Notes under the pieces: generated by a model
What the model was told of the DNA's origin: nothing
What the model saw: only the letters and a program-made list of their open reading frames with translations
Databases searched by the model: none
Part shown: in pieces, positions 36,927-45,259 of the stretch
How the letters are laid out: every line of letters begins with the position of its first letter
Position numbering within the stretch: position 1 is the stretch's first letter
Source: a virus
Virus record (IMG/VR): IMGVR_UViG_3300034092_002634
Coordinates: 18,653-82,652 of that record
Length of the DNA stretch: 64,000 nucleotides
Strand: one strand, 5' to 3'
Position numbers and translations under genes: made by a program

Positions 36927-37015
36927 GTGCTACTAAGCATGTGTTGTTTCCCAGACGACACCACCTGGGACCCCCTCACGTTACGGCAGAACACGTGAGG
37001 GGTTCTTTTTTTTTT
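36927..37015 (+). ncRNA. Candidate small RNA of about 90 nt
   Basis: The segment lies between a promoter-like pair and a strong terminator and has no open frame. It can form two hairpins: TCCCAG at 36949 with CTGGGA at 36965, and the terminator stem. A third weak stem lies near its 5' end. This has the shape of a stand-alone regulatory RNA. Confidence 0.5.
36972..37015 (+). terminator. Strong rho-independent terminator
   Basis: A 10-bp stem (CCCCTCACGT with ACGTGAGGGG, 11-base loop) is followed after three bases by ten Ts. It separates the first part of the cluster from the ribozyme and pseudoknot part. Confidence 0.9.
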
Positions 37016-37078: not shown

Positions 37079-37223
37079 GTTGTCGAAACGGGTTGATGCT
37101 TTTTGAAATTTTTCAGTATGACAAAGGTATGGAAGGTGTAGGTATGTATAGGGTTTTTGACTACCTACCATCTACTGCTTGTGTAAGTAGTAGTAATCAA
37201 CTGTCTTTGAAAGGACAAACATC

Positions 37224-37388
37224 ATGTCGAGCATCATCATCATCACCGTCGTCGTCATCGTCGTCACCATCGTCGTTATCATCGCTATCCCTCAGTTGAT
37301 CATGAAGGGTGCAAAGACGTCTCATGAGCTGTGGGTTGAGCGCAACAACGAGGCAATCGCTCAGAACAATGCAGCGCGCCGCAAGTAA
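37224..37388 (+). CDS. 54-residue membrane protein
   Basis: ATG 37224 follows TTTGAAAGGACAAACATC. The first 25 residues are a run of Ile and Val (a single membrane span, IIIITVVVIVVTIVVIIAIP), followed by a charged C-terminus. The same leader TTTGAAAGGACAAA is used before 37499 and 38479, which also encode membrane-anchored proteins. Confidence 0.65.
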   Translation: MSSIIIITVVVIVVTIVVIIAIPQLIMKGAKTSHELWVERNNEAIAQNNAARRK

Positions 37389-37456: not shown

Positions 37457-37498
37457 TCGTTAGTAATCAGTATTGTCTCTTTGAAAGGACAAACAACC

Positions 37499-37981
37499 AT
37501 GTTCGCAGTCATCATCACCGTCTTCGCAGTCATCGTCGCCATCCGCATCATCAGCAGCATCACCGTCGAGATCACCACCCACCAGTACGATGTCGAGTGT
37601 GAGTGTGTCAAGTGTCAGCAGACCAGCAAGGAGATTCGCAACATGAGTAAGTTGAACGTCAAGTCCATCGAGGAATACGCAGCCATCTACGCTCAATGGG
37701 TATCAGTCGACACCTCAGTCGAAGAGTACTCGGCAGCTGCAGTTGACGTCATCATCACCACAACCGGCACTTGGAAGATGACTTACGTCGTCAACAAGTC
37801 GGTTAAGTTCACTGGCCGCACGTCATACACCGGCAAGACTTCGGGTTGGTTGTTCGAAAACGTCAACACCGGTGCAAGCGACATGTACCTCCAGATCAGT
37901 GGTAAGTCCTCCGCATGGGAAGCTCGCAACTGGTTCGGTAACGGTAACTTCGCTGTCAACACCAAGGTCGCTGTCAAGTAA
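37499..37981 (+). CDS. Membrane-anchored protein with CECxxC motif
   Basis: ATG 37499 follows TTTGAAAGGACAAACAACC and is preferred over an upstream ATG inside the ribozyme. The 160-residue product has an N-terminal membrane span (residues 1-24), then YDVECECVKCQ near 32-42. This Cys motif recurs in proteins at 40180 and 41172. A C-terminal strand-rich domain (about 75-160) has Ser, Thr and Gly. The Cys motif may bind metal. Function unknown. Confidence 0.6.
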   Translation: MFAVIITVFAVIVAIRIISSITVEITTHQYDVECECVKCQQTSKEIRNMSKLNVKSIEEYAAIYAQWVSVDTSVEEYSAAAVDVIITTTGTWKMTYVVNKSVKFTGRTSYTGKTSGWLFENVNTGASDMYLQISGKSSAWEARNWFGNGNFAVNTKVAVK

Positions 37982-37990
37982 CTAACCAAC

Positions 37991-38020
37991 TAGCAACGCT
38001 CACCTGCTACAGGATGTGAG
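37991..38020 (+). promoter_or_regulatory. RNA pseudoknot, class C, copy 1
   Basis: Stem 1 is TAGCA (37991) with TGCTA (38005). Stem 2 is CTCAC (37999) with GTGAG (38016), crossing stem 1. A GCCC-aataa-GGGC hairpin follows at 38034-38046 before the ribosome binding site of the next gene. Confidence 0.7.
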
Positions 38021-38063
38021 AATTATCAACATTGCCCAATAAGGGCTAGAGAGAGTGACTACA

Positions 38064-38378
38064 ATGGAGAACATGCTCAACATCACCGCAATCGCCGCCA
38101 ACGACTGGAACGTCTGGACCTGTGCTCACTGTGAGTCGTGCAACTTCGGTGACACGAAGGTCTGCATCGTGTGTGACATGGGCCGCTGGACCAGCTGTGA
38201 CATCGAGTGCGAGCACAACCGGCCAGCACCTGCTTCGGTAGCGGTATACGTCAACTTGGATGAGGTTGTCCAGGTGCCGTTGCCATACACCAACATCCAT
38301 CAGGTGCCTGCTAATTACAAGGAACTGATGGACATGGAGCGCGAAGGTGCTCTGCAGTTGGAAATGCGCTTGTCGTAG
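38064..38378 (+). CDS. Zinc-finger-like small protein
   Basis: The 104-residue protein starts at ATG 38064 after GAGAGAGTGACTACA. It holds a zinc-ribbon pattern (WTCAHCESCNFGDTKVC then IVCDMG), similar in form to RanBP2-type or double-CxxC fingers, followed by CDIECEHN, which echoes the YDVECEC motif of neighbours. The C-terminal half is helical. Probably binds RNA, DNA or protein through zinc; target unknown. Confidence 0.6.
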   Translation: MENMLNITAIAANDWNVWTCAHCESCNFGDTKVCIVCDMGRWTSCDIECEHNRPAPASVAVYVNLDEVVQVPLPYTNIHQVPANYKELMDMEREGALQLEMRLS

Positions 38379-38388
38379 TCTTGTTCAC

Positions 38389-38420
38389 CTGCAACGCTCA
38401 CCTGCAGTAATGGATGTGAG
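38389..38420 (+). promoter_or_regulatory. RNA pseudoknot, class C, copy 2
   Basis: Stem 1 is CTGCA (38389) with TGCAG (38403). Stem 2 is CTCAC (38397) with GTGAG (38416). Compared with copy 1, stem 1 has changed on both sides and still pairs. The leader then runs to TTTGAAAGGACAAAA before the next gene. Confidence 0.7.
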
Positions 38421-38478
38421 ATGTCCGTATGTCCGTATGTGTGTTTATTATTATGTTCTTTGAAAGGACAAAACTACC

Positions 38479-38844
38479 ATGAAGTCAGTCATCAACGCAG
38501 TCATCGGCATGTTCGTGTTGGTCGTCAGCCACTTGGTCATCTACTTCGTTCGCAACCTGAAGATGGGCTTCATCTTCGGCGTCGTCATGCTCACCTTGCT
38601 TGGCTTGGGCATCAGCGGCGAATTGCCTTCTATCGACATTGTCACCGCTAAGTGGGTAGGCATTCTGACCGTTGGGTACGCAGCTGTCGTTGCTGTATTC
38701 GGTGTGTTCGTAACCGCTTACGAGATTCGTAAGTACATGGCCAAGGAAGCAAAGGGCCAAGACACCTGGATTGAGCGGATTAACCTTCTTAAGGTTGTCT
38801 ACAATGTTCCAGGATACAGCTTCCGCAACAACATCACCAAGTAG
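38479..38844 (+). CDS. Three-span membrane protein
   Basis: A 121-residue protein with likely membrane segments at about residues 5-25, 29-47 and 60-82, then a charged C-terminal tail. It has a Shine-Dalgarno in TTTGAAAGGACAAAA. Unrecognised. Its leader sequence groups it with the membrane-anchored genes at 37224 and 37499. Confidence 0.6.
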   Translation: MKSVINAVIGMFVLVVSHLVIYFVRNLKMGFIFGVVMLTLLGLGISGELPSIDIVTAKWVGILTVGYAAVVAVFGVFVTAYEIRKYMAKEAKGQDTWIERINLLKVVYNVPGYSFRNNITK

Positions 38845-38849
38845 TCAAC

Positions 38850-38913
38850 ACCGGAGTGGGCGGCAACCGGTCAACTTGCCCACCATTGGAGAAGTGATGC
38901 ATCTCCAGCATAG
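38850..38913 (+). promoter_or_regulatory. RNA pseudoknot, class A, copy 1, with 3' hairpin
   Basis: Stem 1 is ACCGG (38850) with CCGGT (38867). Stem 2 is GTGGGC (38856) with GCCCAC (38878). Then CATT and a third hairpin, TGGAG with CTCCA, ending in GCATAG. It lies between two genes on the same strand. Confidence 0.75.
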
Positions 38914-38955
38914 ATCAGCATCCTTGCTGCGTTTGCAGCTAGAGGGGTATTACCA

Positions 38956-39138
38956 ATGGGTAAGTACTATCGGTCCTCGGTGGTTGTTCGTTGGTTGGTG
39001 CACAGTCTGAGCGATTGTGCTATGAGACTGATGCCAATTGGTTTGTCTGATGTCGAGGACGGTAGTCTTCGGTGGAAAGCAGCCAACTGGCTGATGCGCA
39101 AGACTAGCGACTGGGCTGTCGCGCTTAAGAAGGTCTAG
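38956..39138 (+). CDS. 60-residue hypothetical protein
   Basis: Starts at ATG 38956 after AGAGGGGTATTACCA. Basic, with helix-forming segments (WLVHSLSDCAMRLMP, KAANWLMRKTSDWAVALKK). Its opening MGKYY matches MGKKY of the gene at 39281, and both have the same kind of pseudoknot leader, so they may be linked by duplication of leader plus start. Confidence 0.5.
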   Translation: MGKYYRSSVVVRWLVHSLSDCAMRLMPIGLSDVEDGSLRWKAANWLMRKTSDWAVALKKV

Positions 39139-39143
39139 TCCAC

Positions 39144-39212
39144 CGTGGAGTAAGCGGATAACCACGTTAAAAACTTGCTTACCATTGGAGAAGTAATGCA
39201 ACTCCAGCATAG
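39144..39212 (+). promoter_or_regulatory. RNA pseudoknot, class A, copy 2, with 3' hairpin
   Basis: Stem 1 is CGTGG (39144) with CCACG (39162). Stem 2 is GTAAGC (39150) with GCTTAC (39177). CATT and TGGAG/CTCCA plus GCATAG follow as in copy 1. Both stems differ from copy 1 by paired changes. Confidence 0.8.
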
Positions 39213-39280
39213 CACTGCATTCTCGGATGACAATCATCTGAGCTATAGCTGCCATTGCAGCTAGAAAGGTACGCCTTACC

Positions 39281-39763
39281 ATGGGTAAGAAGTACAACAC
39301 GTCCGCAGTCACCGTTCGTCCGATTGCCACCGGGGAGCTTGCCTTCCTGGTCGAGGCATGGGAGGGCATCAAGCCTTCCCGCAAAGCCGCGGTGACGGTG
39401 CGGATTGCTCGGGAGACCGAGCGTCCGGCCAACTGGCGGCCAAAGACCGACAAGATCGGTCGCCGTCCTCGGATTGAGGCGGTGGTGGCTGAGCGAGAAG
39501 TGGAGGAAGGGCCGCACGAGTGCGACTTCTCGATCAGCCGGTGGGAGGATGTCATCTACCACCATAGCGGGTGGATTGACGTAACTATCGCACGGTGTGA
39601 GTGCGGTAGTTACAACATCACTCCGGAAGACCCGGAGATCCACATCTCCGAAGACGACCACGCTCACCAAGTGTGGATTATTAAAAAGTATAGGTGTAAT
39701 CCTGTGGCGTACGTTTCCGAGTCGTACGAGGGCAGTTCGCCCTTCAAGAAGCTCGACCGGTAG
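39281..39763 (+). CDS. Hypothetical protein with possible metal site
   Basis: A 160-residue protein. The first half is basic and helical. The second half has HECDFS near 84, a CECGS at about 106 and HISEDDHAHQ at about 123, so several Cys and His that could bind a metal. The start follows AGAAAGGTACGCCTTACC. No family recognised. Confidence 0.55.
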   Translation: MGKKYNTSAVTVRPIATGELAFLVEAWEGIKPSRKAAVTVRIARETERPANWRPKTDKIGRRPRIEAVVAEREVEEGPHECDFSISRWEDVIYHHSGWIDVTIARCECGSYNITPEDPEIHISEDDHAHQVWIIKKYRCNPVAYVSESYEGSSPFKKLDR

Positions 39764-39767
39764 TCAC

Positions 39768-39840
39768 ACGTGGAGTCAACGGATAACCACGTTAAAAACT
39801 TGTTGACCATTGTATATACATAATTCTGTGTATATACTAG
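39768..39840 (+). promoter_or_regulatory. RNA pseudoknot, class A, copy 3, with 3' hairpin
   Basis: Stem 1 is ACGTGG (39768) with CCACGT (39787). Stem 2 is GTCAAC (39775) with GTTGAC (39802). After CATT a 9-bp hairpin GTATATACA/TGTATATAC ends in TAG, then GCTCtcgaaaGGAGC carries the ribosome binding site. Confidence 0.82.
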
Positions 39841-39860
39841 CTCTCGAAAGGAGCACGGCT

Positions 39861-40085
39861 ATGGAATTCCTTGAGGTATTAGTTCGCGGTAAGACGGTCA
39901 AAGATGTCAGCGTCGAGCAGATCGCGCGCAACATCTACGAAGTCACGGTGGGCCATGGCGGCGGGGAAGAGGGCCCCGACGGTGAATGGCGTGGCTACGT
40001 AATCGGTCGTAGCCAAATTATCATCGCCAGTAGCATGTACGATGCGTGCTACAAGGCGCATCACTTAGCCAAGATAATTGGCTAA
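39861..40085 (+). CDS. 74-residue hypothetical protein
   Basis: ATG 39861 follows CGAAAGGAGCACGGCT, fixing the start downstream of the pseudoknot. A small alpha/beta protein with a flexible Gly-rich turn (VGHGGGEEGPDGEW) and a C-terminal helix containing YDACYKAHHLAK. Unrecognised. Confidence 0.55.
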   Translation: MEFLEVLVRGKTVKDVSVEQIARNIYEVTVGHGGGEEGPDGEWRGYVIGRSQIIIASSMYDACYKAHHLAKIIG

Positions 40086-40091
40086 GTGTGT

Positions 40092-40160
40092 TGCAGAGTG
40101 GGCGGTAACTGCATAACTTGCCCACCATTGCATACAGTATAATTCGGTATTGTATGCTAG
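40092..40160 (+). promoter_or_regulatory. RNA pseudoknot, class A, copy 4, with 3' hairpin
   Basis: Stem 1 is TGCAG (40092) with CTGCA (40109). Stem 2 is GTGGGC (40098) with GCCCAC (40120). CATT then hairpin GCATACA/TGTATGC ending in TAG. The following GCTCtcgaaaGGAGC holds the binding site. Confidence 0.82.
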
Positions 40161-40179
40161 CTCTCGAAAGGAGCATATC

Positions 40180-40461
40180 ATGCATAAGTATGATGTAGAG
40201 TGTGAGTGTGTAGTGTGTGTGGCGTGGACCGACCGGATCGGGCATAAGTTGGAAACTGTGGCAACATACGTTGACAACAGTGGACACGATTACGACATTG
40301 AGTGCGAATGCACTGAGTGTCAGAAGATCACGGTGGCCGAGCGCGAAATCCAGATGTATGTCCTGGGGGAACCAATCTCTGTCCCGGTTACGATCAATCC
40401 AGAGGTTCAGGAATTCGCTGACAAGAAGTTGTCGGATAGTATTCGGTTCGATCAGCACTAA
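40180..40461 (+). CDS. Protein with two CECxxC motifs
   Basis: From ATG 40180 the 93-residue protein opens HKYDVECECVVC and repeats YDIECECTECQK near residues 44-55. It is therefore an internal duplication of the Cys motif also found at 37499 and 41172. Six closely placed Cys suggest metal binding or a redox site. C-terminal half unknown. Confidence 0.6.
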   Translation: MHKYDVECECVVCVAWTDRIGHKLETVATYVDNSGHDYDIECECTECQKITVAEREIQMYVLGEPISVPVTINPEVQEFADKKLSDSIRFDQH

Positions 40462-40470
40462 TCAGCACTA

Positions 40471-40501
40471 GAGCTCTCGGCAAAGCTCGTTAAACACCGA
40501 G
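40471..40501 (+). promoter_or_regulatory. RNA pseudoknot, class B, copy 1
   Basis: Stem 1 is GAGCT (40471) with AGCTC (40484). Stem 2 is CTCGG (40476) with CCGAG (40497). The linker GTTAAACA is shared with other class B copies. The next ATG is nine bases downstream. Confidence 0.75.
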
Positions 40502-40510
40502 TAGAAGGGA

Positions 40511-40588
40511 ATGTCTATGTATGACATTCTGGTTGTGACGGTGTTGGCATTCGTGATGATGGCCGTGTTATTGAAAGGTGGTCGGTAA
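40511..40588 (+). CDS. 25-residue membrane peptide
   Basis: ATG 40511 (or 40517) follows GAAGGGA. One hydrophobic helix (DILVVTVLAFVMMAVLL) with a basic end. It overlaps the next gene by one base (TAATG). Confidence 0.5.
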   Translation: MSMYDILVVTVLAFVMMAVLLKGGR

Positions 40589-40788
40589 TGAGTCCTGCAG
40601 AACAACTATACGTCGAGAAGTTGTGTCGCCAGTACTATCAGGCGCTCTATGGCGTAGATTACGTCGTAGAGTTCGGGCATATCTTGCTGTTTCCGCATAA
40701 GCATGCGGAGGCTGTGGTCAAGCTCGAGAAACTCATGGAGAATGTCGGTTACCAGGTAGTTCGCCTGGTAGAAATTCGGAAAGGGTAA
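40588..40788 (+). CDS. 66-residue hypothetical protein
   Basis: Coupled to the preceding membrane peptide by overlap, with GAAAGGTGG upstream. A helix-strand-helix protein (EQLYVEKLCRQYYQALYG; HAEAVVKLEKLMENVGY) of unknown role. Confidence 0.55.
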   Translation: MSPAEQLYVEKLCRQYYQALYGVDYVVEFGHILLFPHKHAEAVVKLEKLMENVGYQVVRLVEIRKG

Positions 40789-40792
40789 ACTA

Positions 40793-41101
40793 GTGCACAA
40801 GATCACCCTGTTAGACGTTCGGCATAGTGCTGCCGAAAAGCTGGCCAAAGAGAAACTGCGGGTAGAAGTACCCGCAGAATACAACGGGGATTGGTTCCCC
40901 GCTGTCATGTACGTACCTGCGTATCCCCGTCAGGAGGATCACAGCGTGGATGCTTACACGTTCAAATGTGTGAGCGTCAACGCTAGCCTGAAACGTCTTA
41001 GACGGCTCTACACGGCCCTTGGTGGACGCGCAATGCCTCCGTGGTCCGGTATATTGGTTGACGGCGTCGAGGTCAACGGGAACGTCAAGGACGGCGAGTA
41101 G
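40793..41101 (+). CDS. Hypothetical protein
   Basis: A 102-residue protein starting at GTG 40793 after GGAAAGGGTAAACTA, four bases after the previous stop. It is basic and shows mixed alpha/beta character with no Cys motif. Unrecognised. Confidence 0.5.
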   Translation: MHKITLLDVRHSAAEKLAKEKLRVEVPAEYNGDWFPAVMYVPAYPRQEDHSVDAYTFKCVSVNASLKRLRRLYTALGGRAMPPWSGILVDGVEVNGNVKDGE

Positions 41102-41106
41102 TCCAC

Positions 41107-41140
41107 CTGGAGTGAGGGGTAACCAGTATAACTTCCTCAT
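41107..41140 (+). promoter_or_regulatory. RNA pseudoknot, class A, copy 5
   Basis: Stem 1 is CTGG (41107) with CCAG (41123). Stem 2 is TGAGG (41113) with CCTCA (41135). Shorter than copies 1-4 and lacking a clear third hairpin; followed by GCTCttgaaaGGAGC. Confidence 0.65.
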
Positions 41141-41171
41141 GTACTAATTTAGCTCTTGAAAGGAGCGTGTC

Positions 41172-41423
41172 ATGCACAAGTATGACGTTGAGTGCGAGTG
41201 TGTCGAGTGTCAGAAATCCTGGAGGGTGGAGCACATCTGGGAGACCGTCAACTCCCAGGCGGAAGCAGACTGGACTTTCTCGGGTGACACCGAGGACGAG
41301 GTCGTCGCCGCTGCGTACAAGCGCAAAGAGACTCTTCGCCCCACTGAAGAAGAGTGGATGGCTGTGGAGGACAAGTTCTTTCTCTACAAAAAGGGGAAGT
41401 TCTTGGGAGAGTTTTCCCTTTAG
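41172..41423 (+). CDS. CECxxC-motif protein
   Basis: The 83-residue protein opens HKYDVECECVECQK, nearly identical to the start of the protein at 40180. It then diverges into an acidic, Trp-rich sequence (RPTEEEWMAVEDKFF). The shared N-terminus with unrelated remainder suggests a reused targeting or metal-binding module. Confidence 0.6.
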   Translation: MHKYDVECECVECQKSWRVEHIWETVNSQAEADWTFSGDTEDEVVAAAYKRKETLRPTEEEWMAVEDKFFLYKKGKFLGEFSL

Positions 41424-41429
41424 TAGTCC

Positions 41430-41463
41430 ACGTGGTAGTCGGATAACCACGTTAAACACCGAC
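41430..41463 (+). promoter_or_regulatory. RNA pseudoknot, class B, copy 2
   Basis: Stem 1 is ACGTGG (41430) with CCACGT (41447). Stem 2 is GTCGG (41438) with CCGAC (41459). Linker TAAACA. A GTGC-aaaa-GCAC hairpin then precedes AAGGAG. Confidence 0.78.
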
Positions 41464-41497
41464 ATCATTTTATGTGCAAAAGCACAAGGAGAATCCA

Positions 41498-41974
41498 ATG
41501 CCTAATTGGTGCAGTAACGTTGTTCAACTCAGCAAAGACGGGTACGACTTTACGAGCATGGAAAAACGCATCCCTACCGAGGGACTCTATGCGCAATTCC
41601 TTCCCGCACCCGAGGGACTTGACGACCACCAACTGACGGATTGGTGCTACGAGAATTGGGGCGTTAAGTGGGACACCCAGAACGCAGATGCCGGCGTCGA
41701 TGGCGACCGCATTCAACTGTGTTTTGATAGCCCATGGAGCGCACCACGGCAGTGGCTCGCCTATATGGTGAGCATCGGGTTCGATGTCCGAGGTGCATTC
41801 TGGGAGCCAGGCATGGCCATGGGCGGTGTCTACACTACCTTGCACGATGGAGCACTAGTTGCTCCAGCATTGGAGTGGACGCAGGACAACCTCGTCGAAC
41901 GGGGTAGCGAAATGTACGAATATCTCATCAGTTACGGACTGATCTCAGAAGATGATGAAATGATCAACGACTAG
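41498..41974 (+). CDS. YubB-like (DUF1281-type) ferredoxin-fold protein
   Basis: The 158-residue protein begins MPNWCSNVVQL and has LTDWCYENWGVKWDT near 46-60 and SPWSAPRQWLAYM near 78-90. These are hallmarks of a family spread among phages and plasmids (YubB / Api92-like), with a ferredoxin-like fold but no iron site. Its molecular role is not known. ATG 41498 follows AAGGAGAATCCA. Confidence 0.75.
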   Translation: MPNWCSNVVQLSKDGYDFTSMEKRIPTEGLYAQFLPAPEGLDDHQLTDWCYENWGVKWDTQNADAGVDGDRIQLCFDSPWSAPRQWLAYMVSIGFDVRGAFWEPGMAMGGVYTTLHDGALVAPALEWTQDNLVERGSEMYEYLISYGLISEDDEMIND

Positions 41975-41979
41975 CTCGC

Positions 41980-42013
41980 ACGAGGTAACCGGCAAACCTC
42001 GTTAAACACCGGT
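41980..42013 (+). promoter_or_regulatory. RNA pseudoknot, class B, copy 3
   Basis: Stem 1 is ACGAGG (41980) with CCTCGT (41997). Stem 2 is ACCGG (41988) with CCGGT (42009). Linker TAAACA. GCTCacgaaaGGAGC follows with the binding site. Confidence 0.75.
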
Positions 42014-42043
42014 ATCTTTTTATGCTCACGAAAGGAGCACGGT

Positions 42044-42313
42044 ATGTTGTATTGCATGATGGCGGTGTCTCGATGGCTTACTGGTGACCCGGACTTCGGG
42101 TACGATGGGGAGATGATCCCCAAGGTCACCGCGGTGATCTACATCCGTGAACAGCCCTTTGAGGACTGGGAGCGGGAGGAAGGCAGGAATATCTGGAAAA
42201 TCAAGCTCGGTGAGTCTACTGTTGTGTCAATGCATAGGTGGACAACTGATCTCTCTCCAGTGGAGATCAGTACCAAGCATGACTGCGAAGTCATTGACTG
42301 GTCCAAGCGGTAA
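42044..42313 (+). CDS. Hypothetical protein
   Basis: An 89-residue protein starting after CGAAAGGAGCACGGT. Mixed alpha/beta with Trp-rich stretches (DWEREEGRNIWKIKL). The TCGG-type pseudoknot follows its stop. Unrecognised. Confidence 0.55.
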   Translation: MLYCMMAVSRWLTGDPDFGYDGEMIPKVTAVIYIREQPFEDWEREEGRNIWKIKLGESTVVSMHRWTTDLSPVEISTKHDCEVIDWSKR

Positions 42314-42322
42314 GTGGAGATC

Positions 42323-42356
42323 TCGGAGTGAGGGGATAACCGATGTAACTTCCTCA
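42323..42356 (+). promoter_or_regulatory. RNA pseudoknot, class A, copy 6
   Basis: Stem 1 is TCGG (42323) with CCGA (42340). Stem 2 is TGAGG (42329) with CCTCA (42352). Followed by GCTCttgaaaGGAGC as in copy 5. Confidence 0.62.
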
Positions 42357-42389
42357 ATAGTTATATTAGCTCTTGAAAGGAGCAACGCT

Positions 42390-42644
42390 ATGCAAGTACT
42401 GCAAGCACGGGGAATTATCCTGGAAAATCTGGAAGCGCTTCGCGAGTTCAAGCCCGAGGACTTGCGGCTGGTTGCGTTATACAACGCAGCAGCAGGGCAG
42501 TCCTGGGCCGAGTTCAACCTTATCCGCACAACGTGTGCGGACTGGGACGAGCTCACCTACAACAACTTTGAGGAGGAAGACCTCAAGAATTTGTGGGACG
42601 AACTCTCTGAGCATTTCAGCAAAATCTGGGAAGGAACCAAGTAA
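42390..42644 (+). CDS. 84-residue hypothetical protein
   Basis: ATG 42390 follows TTGAAAGGAGCAACGCT. Entirely helical and acidic (LENLEALREFKPEDL; NNFEEEDLKNLWDEL). It overlaps the next gene by one base (TAATG), so the two are likely coupled. Unknown function. Confidence 0.55.
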   Translation: MQVLQARGIILENLEALREFKPEDLRLVALYNAAAGQSWAEFNLIRTTCADWDELTYNNFEEEDLKNLWDELSEHFSKIWEGTK

Positions 42645-43018
42645 TGCGAGTACGTGGCAAGCAGCCGCATGTCTATCGTGAGTCAGAAACGGCTACGATA
42701 GCGCGGTACACCAACTTGCTCCCTCCTGTGTACGAGGCAAGTGCACAGGAGTGGAAGGTGTTTGGCCGTCAGGATACCATTGTCCGTGTTGGTACGCGGG
42801 CGACTATGCTGACGTATCTCAAGGGTAGGCGCGATCAGTATACTCGTATGCACGGATACGAGGATTTGACTGACCCCTGCCTCAGGCTGAGGTGGGATAC
42901 TAGTCTGCGGTGCTTTCACGTGACAGAGCCGCAGTTGGACCTACCCGTGTTCTCAGGTACTAAGTACATGTGTACGTGGTATCTGGTTGGCCGGTCGGAC
43001 GAGTTCCAAGGCCTGTAG
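42644..43018 (+). CDS. Hypothetical protein
   Basis: A 124-residue basic protein coupled to the preceding gene. It has strands at its C-terminus (YMCTWYLVGRSDE) and several Arg. No recognised domain. Confidence 0.5.
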   Translation: MRVRGKQPHVYRESETATIARYTNLLPPVYEASAQEWKVFGRQDTIVRVGTRATMLTYLKGRRDQYTRMHGYEDLTDPCLRLRWDTSLRCFHVTEPQLDLPVFSGTKYMCTWYLVGRSDEFQGL

Positions 43019-43024
43019 TGTGTT

Positions 43025-43052
43025 GACAACGCTCACCTGTGTCGGATGTGAG
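43025..43052 (+). promoter_or_regulatory. RNA pseudoknot, class C, copy 3
   Basis: Stem 1 is GACA (43025) with TGTC (43040). Stem 2 is CTCAC (43032) with GTGAG (43048). A GCCC-tgag-GGGC hairpin and AAGGAGAG follow. Confidence 0.68.
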
Positions 43053-43094
43053 AAAGTAATTATAGCCCTGAGGGGCAAGAAGGAGAGTGTGACT

Positions 43095-43373
43095 ATGGGT
43101 AAGGTTATCACCGCAGCGGTCTTCATCAGCATGTTCAACAGCTCATTCCGGGACAGGCTCGAGTGGATGAGTGAGGAAGTTCGCGACCTCACGGTGGACG
43201 CGCTCACCCGGGAAGGCTACGACGAGGACGATTTGCGTCGGATGTCGGATGCCTTTGCCAAGCTGGAGGAAAAGTCCAGCGACTTGATCGAGACAGACTA
43301 CGCCAACGATCTGCTGAACGTGGACGAAGAGAGTCTCGATGAGGGTTACTACTCGGATGGTGAAGACGAGTAG
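43095..43373 (+). CDS. Acidic hypothetical protein
   Basis: From ATG 43095 after AAGGAGAGTGTGACT. The 92-residue product has a helical core and a very acidic C-terminus (DEESLDEGYYSDGEDE), a composition seen in DNA mimics and small host-takeover proteins. No family can be assigned. Confidence 0.55.
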   Translation: MGKVITAAVFISMFNSSFRDRLEWMSEEVRDLTVDALTREGYDEDDLRRMSDAFAKLEEKSSDLIETDYANDLLNVDEESLDEGYYSDGEDE

Positions 43374-43382
43374 TAGGTAGCG

Positions 43383-43414
43383 GACTGGCAACTCTCGCCT
43401 GCGTCGGATGCGAG
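43383..43414 (+). promoter_or_regulatory. RNA pseudoknot, class C, copy 4 (bulged stem 1)
   Basis: Stem 2 is CTCGC (43394) with GCGAG (43410). Stem 1 is weaker: GAC with GTC plus an inner GC pair step separated by a TG bulge. The GCCC-tgag-GGGC hairpin follows. Confidence 0.55.
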
Positions 43415-43457
43415 GAAGTAATGTATAGCCCTGAGGGGCAAGAAGGAGAGTGTGACT

Positions 43458-43919
43458 ATGGGGACTCAGCATTGCGTCTTGATCCAGGACCGTTTCGACA
43501 ACGAGGCCAAGTTCAACTTGGTCATCACCCACGACGTACCCTTCCACCCGGAAGCGGTCTTGTGGATTGCTCAGCTGTACACGGCAAAGCGTTGGGGGTC
43601 ACAGCCCGACGTGTACCGCACTGCCGAGCTCGATGTCAGCGTCGACTGGAACGACATCGTGTACGTTCCGGCGCTAAATGTCCTGGACTTCGAGTCCTCG
43701 GACTACTGGCCAACACAGAAGCAGCTGAGGTTGGCTCGGATGGCGTTGGATTCGTACCGTATGTTTTATGACGAGTTGGCAAGGCAGGAGAAGATTATCT
43801 CCGGCTATGTCCGTCAGGAGATGCACAAGCAGTACGGTGAGGACACCGTCGCTATGCGTCTTCCCACCTTCCACAGCCGTGCTTCGGCATTGGACATCCT
43901 AGTTCATCTGGCACGGTAA
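43458..43919 (+). CDS. Hypothetical protein
   Basis: The 153-residue protein starts at ATG 43458 after AAGGAGAGTGTGACT. It has an N-terminal strand region and a helical C-terminus (MFYDELARQEKIISGYVRQ). Leader and start are closely like those of the gene at 43095. Unrecognised. Confidence 0.55.
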   Translation: MGTQHCVLIQDRFDNEAKFNLVITHDVPFHPEAVLWIAQLYTAKRWGSQPDVYRTAELDVSVDWNDIVYVPALNVLDFESSDYWPTQKQLRLARMALDSYRMFYDELARQEKIISGYVRQEMHKQYGEDTVAMRLPTFHSRASALDILVHLAR

Positions 43920-43925
43920 GTCCAC

Positions 43926-43958
43926 ACGAGGTAGCCGGCGAACCTCGTTAAACACCGG
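43926..43958 (+). promoter_or_regulatory. RNA pseudoknot, class B, copy 4
   Basis: Stem 1 is ACGAGG (43926) with CCTCGT (43943). Stem 2 is CCGG (43935) with CCGG (43955). Linker TAAACA. Followed by GTGC-aaga-GCAC and AAAGGAG. Confidence 0.72.
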
Positions 43959-43996
43959 TATAGTATTATAAGTGCAAGAGCACAAAGGAGAGCAAG

Positions 43997-44323
43997 ATGC
44001 GTTACTCAATCAAGTTCGTGGCGAGTGCGAAGAAGTCCGTTCCCTTCGGCCTGGGTATGAGCAAGAAGTTCCACGACGCTGTGTGGAAGGGTGGGTGTAA
44101 GCGCCAGTGGCACGACATTGGTATCAAGGCCACGGAGTACTGCCTGCGGACACGTTCGTGCATGATCGACGTCGAGGCCTCGGACGCTGCTGAGTTGTCG
44201 TTTAAGCAGGAGGTGTGCCAGAGCCTGGTCGACTACATCTGGCAGGCAAGCAACAAGCCCTTTACAAGCGTAGAGGTGTTCGAGACGTGGAGTCACAAGG
44301 TTATCTACAAGGCTGATCTCTAG
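43997..44323 (+). CDS. Hypothetical protein
   Basis: A 108-residue basic protein (MRYSIKFVASAKKSVPFGLG) with two Cys and a C-terminal strand-helix pattern. AAAGGAGAGCAAG precedes the ATG. Unrecognised. Next downstream is the antirestriction gene. Confidence 0.55.
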   Translation: MRYSIKFVASAKKSVPFGLGMSKKFHDAVWKGGCKRQWHDIGIKATEYCLRTRSCMIDVEASDAAELSFKQEVCQSLVDYIWQASNKPFTSVEVFETWSHKVIYKADL

Positions 44324-44327
44324 GAAT

Positions 44328-44359
44328 GTCTGGCAACTCCCACCTGCGACGGATGTGGG
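44328..44359 (+). promoter_or_regulatory. RNA pseudoknot, class C, copy 5 (bulged stem 1)
   Basis: Stem 2 is CCCAC (44339) with GTGGG (44355). Stem 1 is GTC with GAC plus an inner GC pair step, a paired swap of copy 4. A GTGC-aagt-GCAC hairpin and AAAGGAG follow. Confidence 0.6.
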
Positions 44360-44398: not shown

Positions 44399-45259
44399 AT
44401 GTCTGATGTCAAAGTCCCTGCAGCAGAGCGTATTGGGTCCGCGATGGTTGAGAAGCTGATCGAGTCACTCGAAGCGGGAGTGGCAAACGGTCAATGGAAG
44501 CAGCCGTGGACAACGTCAAAGCAGATCAATGCGGTCACCGGGGCTAGCTACTCCGGTGCCAATGCGATCAACTTGATGTTGATTGGCGCGGAATGCCCTT
44601 ACTGGGCTACCTTCAATCAGTGGTCGACAGCCGGTTACCGTATTCCACAGGGTACGGAATCCAGCGGTTTTGTCCACACCCCTCCGAGACGGAACAAGAA
44701 GACGGAGAGCGGCGAAGAGATCACCATATTCGTCCCATCAAAGACGTTTGTGGTGTTCAACGGTTCACAAGTCGTTGACGCCGATGGCAACCCGTTCACG
44801 TGGGAATCTTCGCCACCTGTTCCGGTTCTTCCAGAGATCGAGGCCTTCTTCGCCAAGCACAATCCAACGATTGTGCATGACGATCCCAGTAGTGCATATT
44901 ATCATCCGTCGAAAGACTTGATCAATATGCCGCCGATCAACTCGTTTGTTGACAATGTTTCATACTATGGAACGTTAGCGCACGAGATGATTCACTGGAC
45001 TGCACACAAGGACCGGCTGGATCGCGATCTGTCTCAGTATGGCCGTGATCGTAAAGTACGCGCATTCGAAGAACTCATAGCTGAGTTCGGCGCGGCCATT
45101 ATCGGTAGTGAACTTGGTCTAACTACTGAGGTGAGAGATGACCATCTGCAGTATCTAGCTTCTTGGCTATCCTCCCTTAAGGAGGATAAGACGGTACTGC
45201 GGCGGGCGGTTACCGAAGCAGGTAAGGCTTCAGCCTACGTCAGCAGAGATGCTGAGTAG
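44399..45259 (+). CDS. ardC: ArdC-like antirestriction protein
   Basis: The 286-residue protein has the ArdC arrangement: an N-terminal single-stranded DNA-binding domain (about 10-125, with WKQPW, GANAINLML and FVVFNGSQV) and a C-terminal metalloprotease-like domain with HEMIH at 195-199 and a following EELIAEF that can supply the third ligand. ArdC proteins protect incoming DNA from restriction endonucleases early after entry, and often form part of polyvalent phage proteins. AAAGGAGCAACAGC precedes the ATG. It is the only protein of known family in its neighbourhood. Confidence 0.88.
   Translation: MSDVKVPAAERIGSAMVEKLIESLEAGVANGQWKQPWTTSKQINAVTGASYSGANAINLMLIGAECPYWATFNQWSTAGYRIPQGTESSGFVHTPPRRNKKTESGEEITIFVPSKTFVVFNGSQVVDADGNPFTWESSPPVPVLPEIEAFFAKHNPTIVHDDPSSAYYHPSKDLINMPPINSFVDNVSYYGTLAHEMIHWTAHKDRLDRDLSQYGRDRKVRAFEELIAEFGAAIIGSELGLTTEVRDDHLQYLASWLSSLKEDKTVLRRAVTEAGKASAYVSRDAE

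Follow-up and report, generated by a model that had tools for sequence, protein, structure and literature searches.

Interchangeable pseudoknots past the stop codons of a phage small-gene cluster

Results

Pseudoknots of three classes occupy the gaps

The window that we analyzed is a 64,000-nucleotide (nt) stretch of viral DNA (bases 18653-82652 of the linear 82,652-base IMG/VR virus record IMGVR_UViG_3300034092_002634), in which a rightward cluster of small genes forms an accessory region of an uncultivated phage lineage. Our main finding is that the gaps between these genes hold H-type RNA pseudoknots. Between positions 37981 and 44399, every one of the 15 gaps that exceed 20 nt contains a pseudoknot (six of class A, four of class B, and five of class C) that begins 4-12 nt past the upstream stop codon, while the other junctions overlap or measure 4 nt. 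Dozens of further pseudoknots are found in the related contigs G001, G002, G003, G004, and G005. Our tentative interpretation, to which we give somewhat less than an even chance, is that each pseudoknot may be a mechanical leader plug shielding the 5' end of a processed cistron. The sequence-only reading had reported the six class A copies, whose coordinates and S1 and S2 pairs we recovered unchanged; its list was incomplete, since pseudoknots of classes B and C are present in these gaps as well (Table 1).

In class A, which is 33-40 nt long and preceded by variable sequence, the order S1 - A - S2 - GG(N)(N)AA - S1' - ...AACTT - S2' is kept in all six copies, and CATT with a third hairpin follows copies 1-4, both as first noticed. 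A class A-like variant at G004 1753 and G003 73951 reads AA-TGGGC-GTG.. and has ..AAAACTCT-GCCCA replacing AACTT. Class B occupies the same site after stop codons as class A, with the layout S1 (ending in T) - about 1 nt - S2 (..CGG) - (N)AA region - S1' (starting with A) - TAAACA - S2' (CCG..), TAAACA being its L3 loop. Class C is arranged as S1 - AC(G/T) - S2 - C - S1' - ..GGAT - S2', with conserved ACG and GGAT loops; a longer, bulged S1 for C3-C5 was rejected as inconsistent in G005. A possible fourth class (..GGTACTCCCG..TTAATATCGGGG..) is seen at G001 16242 and near G004 2110, and its pattern S1-GT-ACTCCC-G-S1'-TTAATATCG-GGGAGT matches only these contigs in the viral collection, G001 (L048) and G004 (L058).

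Table 1. Pseudoknots of the 38-44 kb region and associated hairpins (window positions unless a contig is named)
Feature	Class	Position	Strand	Elements	Remarks
A1	A	38850..38883	+	ACCGG-A-GTGGGC-GGCAA-CCGGT-CAACTT-GCCCAC	5 nt past stop TAG (38842-38844)
A2	A	39144..39182	+	CGTGG-A-GTAAGC-GGATAA-CCACG-TTAAAAACTT-GCTTAC	5 nt past stop TAG
A3	A	39768..39807	+	ACGTGG-A-GTCAAC-GGATAA-CCACGT-TAAAAACTT-GTTGAC	4 nt past stop TAG
A4	A	40092..40125	+	TGCAG-A-GTGGGC-GGTAA-CTGCA-TAACTT-GCCCAC	6 nt past stop TAA
A5	A	41107..41139	+	CTGG-A(G)-TGAGG-GGTAA-CCAG-TATAACTT-CCTCA	5 nt past stop TAG
A6	A	42323..42356	+	TCGG-A(G)-TGAGG-GGATAA-CCGA-TGTAACTT-CCTCA	9 nt past stop TAA
B1	B	40471..40501	+	GAGCT-CTCGG-CAA-AGCTC-GTTAAACA-CCGAG	
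B2	B	41430..41463	+	ACGTGGT-A-GTCGG-ATA-ACCACGT-TAAACA-CCGAC	
B3	B	41980..42013	+	ACGAGGT-A-ACCGG-CAA-ACCTCGT-TAAACA-CCGGT	
B4	B	43926..43958	+	ACGAGGT-AG-CCGG-CGA-ACCTCGT-TAAACA-CCGG	Conserved in G005/L005
C1	C	37991..38020	+	TAGCA-ACG-CTCAC-C-TGCTA-CAGGAT-GTGAG	
C2	C	38389..38420	+	CTGCA-ACG-CTCAC-C-TGCAG-TAATGGAT-GTGAG	
C3	C	43024..43052	+	S2 CTCAC/GTGAG	S1 of just 3-4 pairs
C4	C	43386..43414	+	S2 CTCGC/GCGAG	Compensated S2; S1 inner 3 pairs
C5	C	44331..44359	+	S2 CCCAC/GTGGG	Compensated S2; leader of antirestriction-like gene 44399-45259
Third hairpin		39812..39837	+	GTATATACATAATTCTGTGTATATAC	Between A3 and ribosome-binding site; comparable hairpins after A1, A2, A4
Mini-hairpin		39840..39854	+	GCTCTCGAAAGGAGC	Shine-Dalgarno in 3' arm; recurs in many leaders
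Terminator-like hairpin with T run		L020 4443; L021 3126	Reverse complement		Covarying; just before class A pseudoknot

Both stems covary

Class A candidates were chosen by their core letters, without use of pairing, and their stems were compared afterwards. When the pairing of each copy with itself was set against that of permuted copies, none of 20,000 permutations reached the observed value for S1 or for S2; this pass mis-parses some S2 boundaries, an error that works against the result. We then aligned 21 distinct class A sequences drawn from the window phage, its relatives, and unrelated contigs, which were hand-trimmed to equal length, with one row re-parsed manually and a C required as the first letter of S1'. 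In this alignment, 93.1% of cells pair, both sides have changed in eight of the nine pairs, double-change cells number 63 versus 20.2 after shuffling, and the covariation score is 0.844, compared to 0.242 for shuffled and 0.07-0.15 for slid partners. Such strong covariation in a wider alignment bears out the earlier claim of a real RNA fold. Class C behaves similarly, with 93.6% of cells paired, 12 double-change cells versus 3.2 when shuffled, and four S2 forms (CTCAC/GTGAG, CTCGC/GCGAG, CCCAC/GTGGG, and CCCGC/GCGGG). The elements thus consist of two interleaved helices, each with compensatory change, as expected of an H-type pseudoknot. Nested folding alone chooses S1 in some copies and S2 in others, and only the pseudoknot accounts for both sets of covariation.

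A mechanical search of the + strand for H-type folds, with at least 5 exact pairs in each stem, returned 37 rows that include the six class A copies, several of the 37 being registers of one site. Since shuffled windows yield 16-23 rows, such folds also arise by chance, and our argument depends on how the folds repeat, where they lie, and how they covary. Sites in L070/L072 that carry the class A core letters but leave S2 unpaired were not counted, nor were L014 and L016, where pairing fails in the same way.

Pseudoknots lie just past stop codons

S1 starts 4-12 nt past the upstream stop codon in 40 of the 41 listed copies, the exception being G004 12464, scored at 21 nt. When every called gene end in six genomes of the lineage was scanned blind, 78 knots emerged versus 8.8 in dinucleotide shuffles at an energy cut-off of -16 or better, some of the 78 being terminator-like stems with T runs. 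After removal of hits with long T runs, a positional peak stands at 5-9 nt past the stop (39 versus about 6 per bin). The gene caller, a simple custom one, misses some genes and starts, and it is the stop positions that matter most here. In control phages, the same scan found 3 versus 0.8 for T4, 2 versus 0.7 for Pam2, and 10 versus 8.3 for TM4, i.e., little or no excess of knots after stops; P23-45 gave 13 versus 3.1, several of them terminator-like.

This spacing favors a ribosome-linked insulator: a terminating ribosome would run into the knot a few nucleotides on, and the knot would keep ribosomes that have terminated from straying into the downstream gene or would tune termination and re-initiation. 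It also leaves room for ribosome sensing, one of the functions first suggested from the sequence. The 4-12 nt distance and sharp peak are independent of class, and there is a mild excess of UAG: in the six lineage genomes, 63% of gene ends before gaps with a knot use it, compared to 20% where gene ends are tightly packed or overlap. However, UAG is also common (44%) before gaps without a knot, compaction of the gaps could produce the spacing, and in L015, L020, L021, and L030, which are unrelated to the lineage, 10-45 nt or more separate the folds from the preceding stop. A stop codon, a short spacer, and a pseudoknot are also the layout of programmed stop readthrough, which we rejected because, in those copies that were inspected by eye, reading frames close soon past the stop, leaving no programmed readthrough product, and because UAG is frequent without a knot too. 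On balance, we regard a ribosome-linked insulator as distinctly unlikely, though a serious rival to the plug.

Classes exchange between orthologous genes

The leader of the antirestriction-like gene carries a class C pseudoknot in the window and a class A pseudoknot in G001 and G002 (protein identity 33-41%). A similar exchange is seen between G001 25752 (class C) and G004 10416 (class A), whose genes share 54% protein identity, and a weaker pair is formed by window 41430 (class B) and G004 11839 (class A), at 25%. Different folds of one kind thus serve the same junction, and to judge from these sequences the fold, rather than one specifically recognized sequence, seems to matter. It is chiefly this exchange at orthologous junctions that leads us to prefer a mechanical role.

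The other serious rival is that the knots are operators for an RNA-binding protein of phage or host, which would repress or activate translation of the set of small genes in the way that gp32 acts on the gene 32 leader. It is favored by the conserved class A loop letters (A, GG, AA, and AACTT), which are kept across the lineage and unrelated contigs, and is consistent with the T4 gene 32 precedent and with ribosome-binding sites that often lie within weak hairpins. However, at least three classes with different loops occupy the same site and swap at orthologs, so that one protein could not recognize them by loop sequence, and about 20-100 nt lie between the end of the knot and the start codon, leaving the Shine-Dalgarno uncovered. 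We therefore place a protein operator on the unlikely side.

The leaders downstream of the knots are structured

A typical leader consists of the stop codon, 4-12 nt, the pseudoknot, usually a hairpin, a Shine-Dalgarno often lying in a weak hairpin, and the start codon. From the beginning of S1 to the start codon is 52-137 nt, a distance of some tens of nucleotides as in T4 gene 32. RNA between knot and start is more structured than shuffled sequence (mean z -1.45, n = 39), and no pairing of a knot with the Shine-Dalgarno was seen in the folds examined. In the + strand gaps, there is no excess of promoters and no terminator-like site was found, which fits a post-transcriptional role.

Several further elements were noticed in these leaders. 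The mini-hairpin consensus GCTC(T/C)(T/C)GAAAGGAGC recurs in many of them, also in G003 and G005, and is reminiscent of the start-associated sequence (SAS) of cluster K mycobacteriophages. Downstream of several class B and class C knots is a hairpin with a near-palindromic tip, CTACACAGTGTAG, and a covarying outer stem (G001 13661, 16527, 17027, and 25752; G002 30824; G003 72066; and G004 762). At A1 only (38845-38955), the third hairpin (GGAG/CUCC) excludes pairing of CUCC with the Shine-Dalgarno region, a possible switch.

Similar knots occur in unrelated contigs

Class A knots were found in the unrelated contigs L015, L020, and L021, and class B knots in L030/L032. In L015, the knot is upstream of a small uncharacterized gene; in L020 and L021, it lies between a covarying, terminator-like hairpin that has a T run and a downstream scaffold-like gene, on a contig whose open reading frames (ORFs) we read as including portal- and capsid-like genes; and in L030/L032, it precedes a gene read as hsp20-like. 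Short stretches of L021 DNA match streptococcal phages at about 70-75%. In L020, L021, and L030, the knot precedes a hairpin and a Shine-Dalgarno, and its location away from the upstream stop yet before the downstream start points to a 5'-leader role that serves the downstream gene.

None of the 4227 families of Rfam 15 matches 37900-44200 at an expectation (E) value up to 1, and at gathering scores the whole window contains only tRNAs. Scanning 84,980 bacterial and archaeal genomes with one class A form (GGTAAC) gave a single match, in Thermoprotei, that does not pair. Blastn searches of isolate phages with the motifs of all three classes gave only partial matches (E 5-9), and the one checked, in Felix O1, was rejected because it lies inside a coding gene.

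These results bear on two further alternatives. The knots could be metabolite riboswitches for single genes, given that small riboswitch aptamers are similar in topology to compact H-type pseudoknots whose loops are conserved. However, they match no Rfam family, and the class A form that was scanned is absent from the 84,980 bacterial and archaeal genomes save for the non-pairing match. In addition, many copies precede unrelated small genes, classes swap at orthologs, and, in the gaps and folds examined, the knots are coupled to neither terminator nor Shine-Dalgarno, apart from the possible CUCC/GGAG switch at A1. Riboswitches are thus very unlikely, and the sequence-only suggestion of ligand sensing gene by gene loses favor on the same grounds of class exchange, unrelated genes, and gaps devoid of terminator-like sites.

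More improbable still is a new class of self-cleaving ribozyme separating the cistrons. An intergenic site in a phage and a pseudoknot topology recall the pistol ribozyme, which occurs in phages and whose P1 hairpin loop is pseudoknotted with downstream sequence (PMC4604425), and different ribozyme classes could be interchangeable. However, pistol requires P2, P3, and 10 conserved nucleotides (PMC4604425), whereas the window knots have no counterpart of P2 or of the cleavage loop. The sequence upstream of S1 is variable, and class A is merely 33-40 nt long. With no Rfam ribozyme match either, we rejected pistol and the other known ribozymes.

Genome context of the window

No close isolate phage was found by DNA-level comparison of the window, of which 34399-55256 is covered by a near-identical contig (99.97%). 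Its proteins are phage-like and include a DNA polymerase, a DnaB-like helicase, a ribonucleotide reductase, and a portal; a large 864-residue packaging/head-like protein has no match. The nearest relatives are Pseudanabaena phages for the DNA polymerase (29%) and Thermus phages for the ribonucleotide reductase (41%), and a host assignment was dropped. Ten small proteins encoded between 38 and 44 kb were compared with Pfam and none matched; of ten compared with PHROGs, one had matches, both of unknown function. Two small proteins, encoded at 40180-40461 and 41172-41423, have an N-terminal stretch in common (about 60% over 30 residues) and are apparent paralogs. Upstream of the knots is a direct repeat (37191-37271 and 37461-37543, about 86 bp, 78% identity), with a terminator-like hairpin with a T run just before it (near 37000).

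Discussion

How might such knots act? We propose that the rightward cluster would be transcribed as one polycistronic RNA that is cut near each gene junction, and that the knot, then at the new 5' end, would block 5'-end-dependent decay of the RNase J or RNase E type. Each cistron would thereby become a separately stable mRNA, and its structured leader may in addition act as a translational insulator. A block to 5'-3' exonucleases, among the functions first suggested from the sequence, is compatible with both the position of the knots and the interchange of classes. It is possible, if doubtful, that such modular plugs, drawn interchangeably from several pseudoknot families and turning one transcript into independently stable mRNAs, represent a general phage strategy, in effect giving DNA phages a system of exoribonuclease-resistant RNAs.

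The closest precedent is the T4 gene 32 mRNA, the most stable T4 mRNA, in which RNase E cuts at -71 and the 5' leader forms an H-type pseudoknot some 67 nt before the start codon (PMC3014915). In T4 and T2, however, there is a single copy for one gene, bound by gp32, whereas the lineage studied here has many copies of several classes. The gene 32 knot is followed by an unstructured A+U stretch before the Shine-Dalgarno, where protein binds cooperatively, in contrast to the structured leaders of the window. The T2 structure has a one-nucleotide A loop 1, as in class A, and lacks the GG(N)AA joint that class A has.

Cluster K mycobacteriophages provide a second comparison. Their SAS and extended SAS (ESAS) are likewise leader elements that recur within a single phage, ahead of many small genes. 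The SAS is a short element whose self-complementary ends flank the Shine-Dalgarno (GGGATAGGAGCCC, compared to GCTC..GAAAGGAGC in the window), and about half of the SAS have an upstream inverted repeat (PMC3203893). However, ESAS is presented there as an imperfect inverted repeat of 17 bp whose sequence is conserved, not as a pseudoknot (PMC3203893); by inspection, its sequence upstream of GGGATAGGAGCCC differs from ours, and TM4, unlike the window lineage, shows no excess of knots after stops.

Small pseudoknots are also found among viral exoribonuclease-resistant RNAs (xrRNAs), which mechanically block 5'-3' decay, and type III antitoxins (ToxI), although the window knots match no Rfam family. 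The xrRNAs come from eukaryotic RNA viruses. The knots could instead be decoys or antitoxin-like RNAs against a ToxN-type endoribonuclease of a type III toxin-antitoxin system, whose antitoxins are likewise reported to be short RNA pseudoknots. ToxI units, however, are tandem repeats beside a toxin gene, while the window copies are single and separated by genes, and with the Rfam result this makes the decoy the least probable explanation that we weighed.

Several points weigh against a purely mechanical plug. The trimmed class A alignment has 12 invariant columns, which include the letters used for selection (A, GG, AA, C, and AACTT), and conservation of the loop letters within each class is strong, exceeding what a generic plug would call for. 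The tight stop-codon spacing suits a ribosome-linked role too, and in T4 the gene 32 knot is coupled to gp32 autoregulation, with mRNA stability also attributed to translation.

Pseudoknots in phage leaders are known and, to our knowledge, very few have a known role. As far as could be found, an interchangeable set of several classes at nearly every junction has not been described; a literature search, with most subscription journals outside its coverage, returned no description of this arrangement. A lineage with dozens of knots in at least three classes offers natural compensated variants for testing whether, in bacteria, a knot at a cistron junction governs mRNA decay, translation insulation, or protein binding, and the classes provide new RNA families for annotating viral metagenomes.

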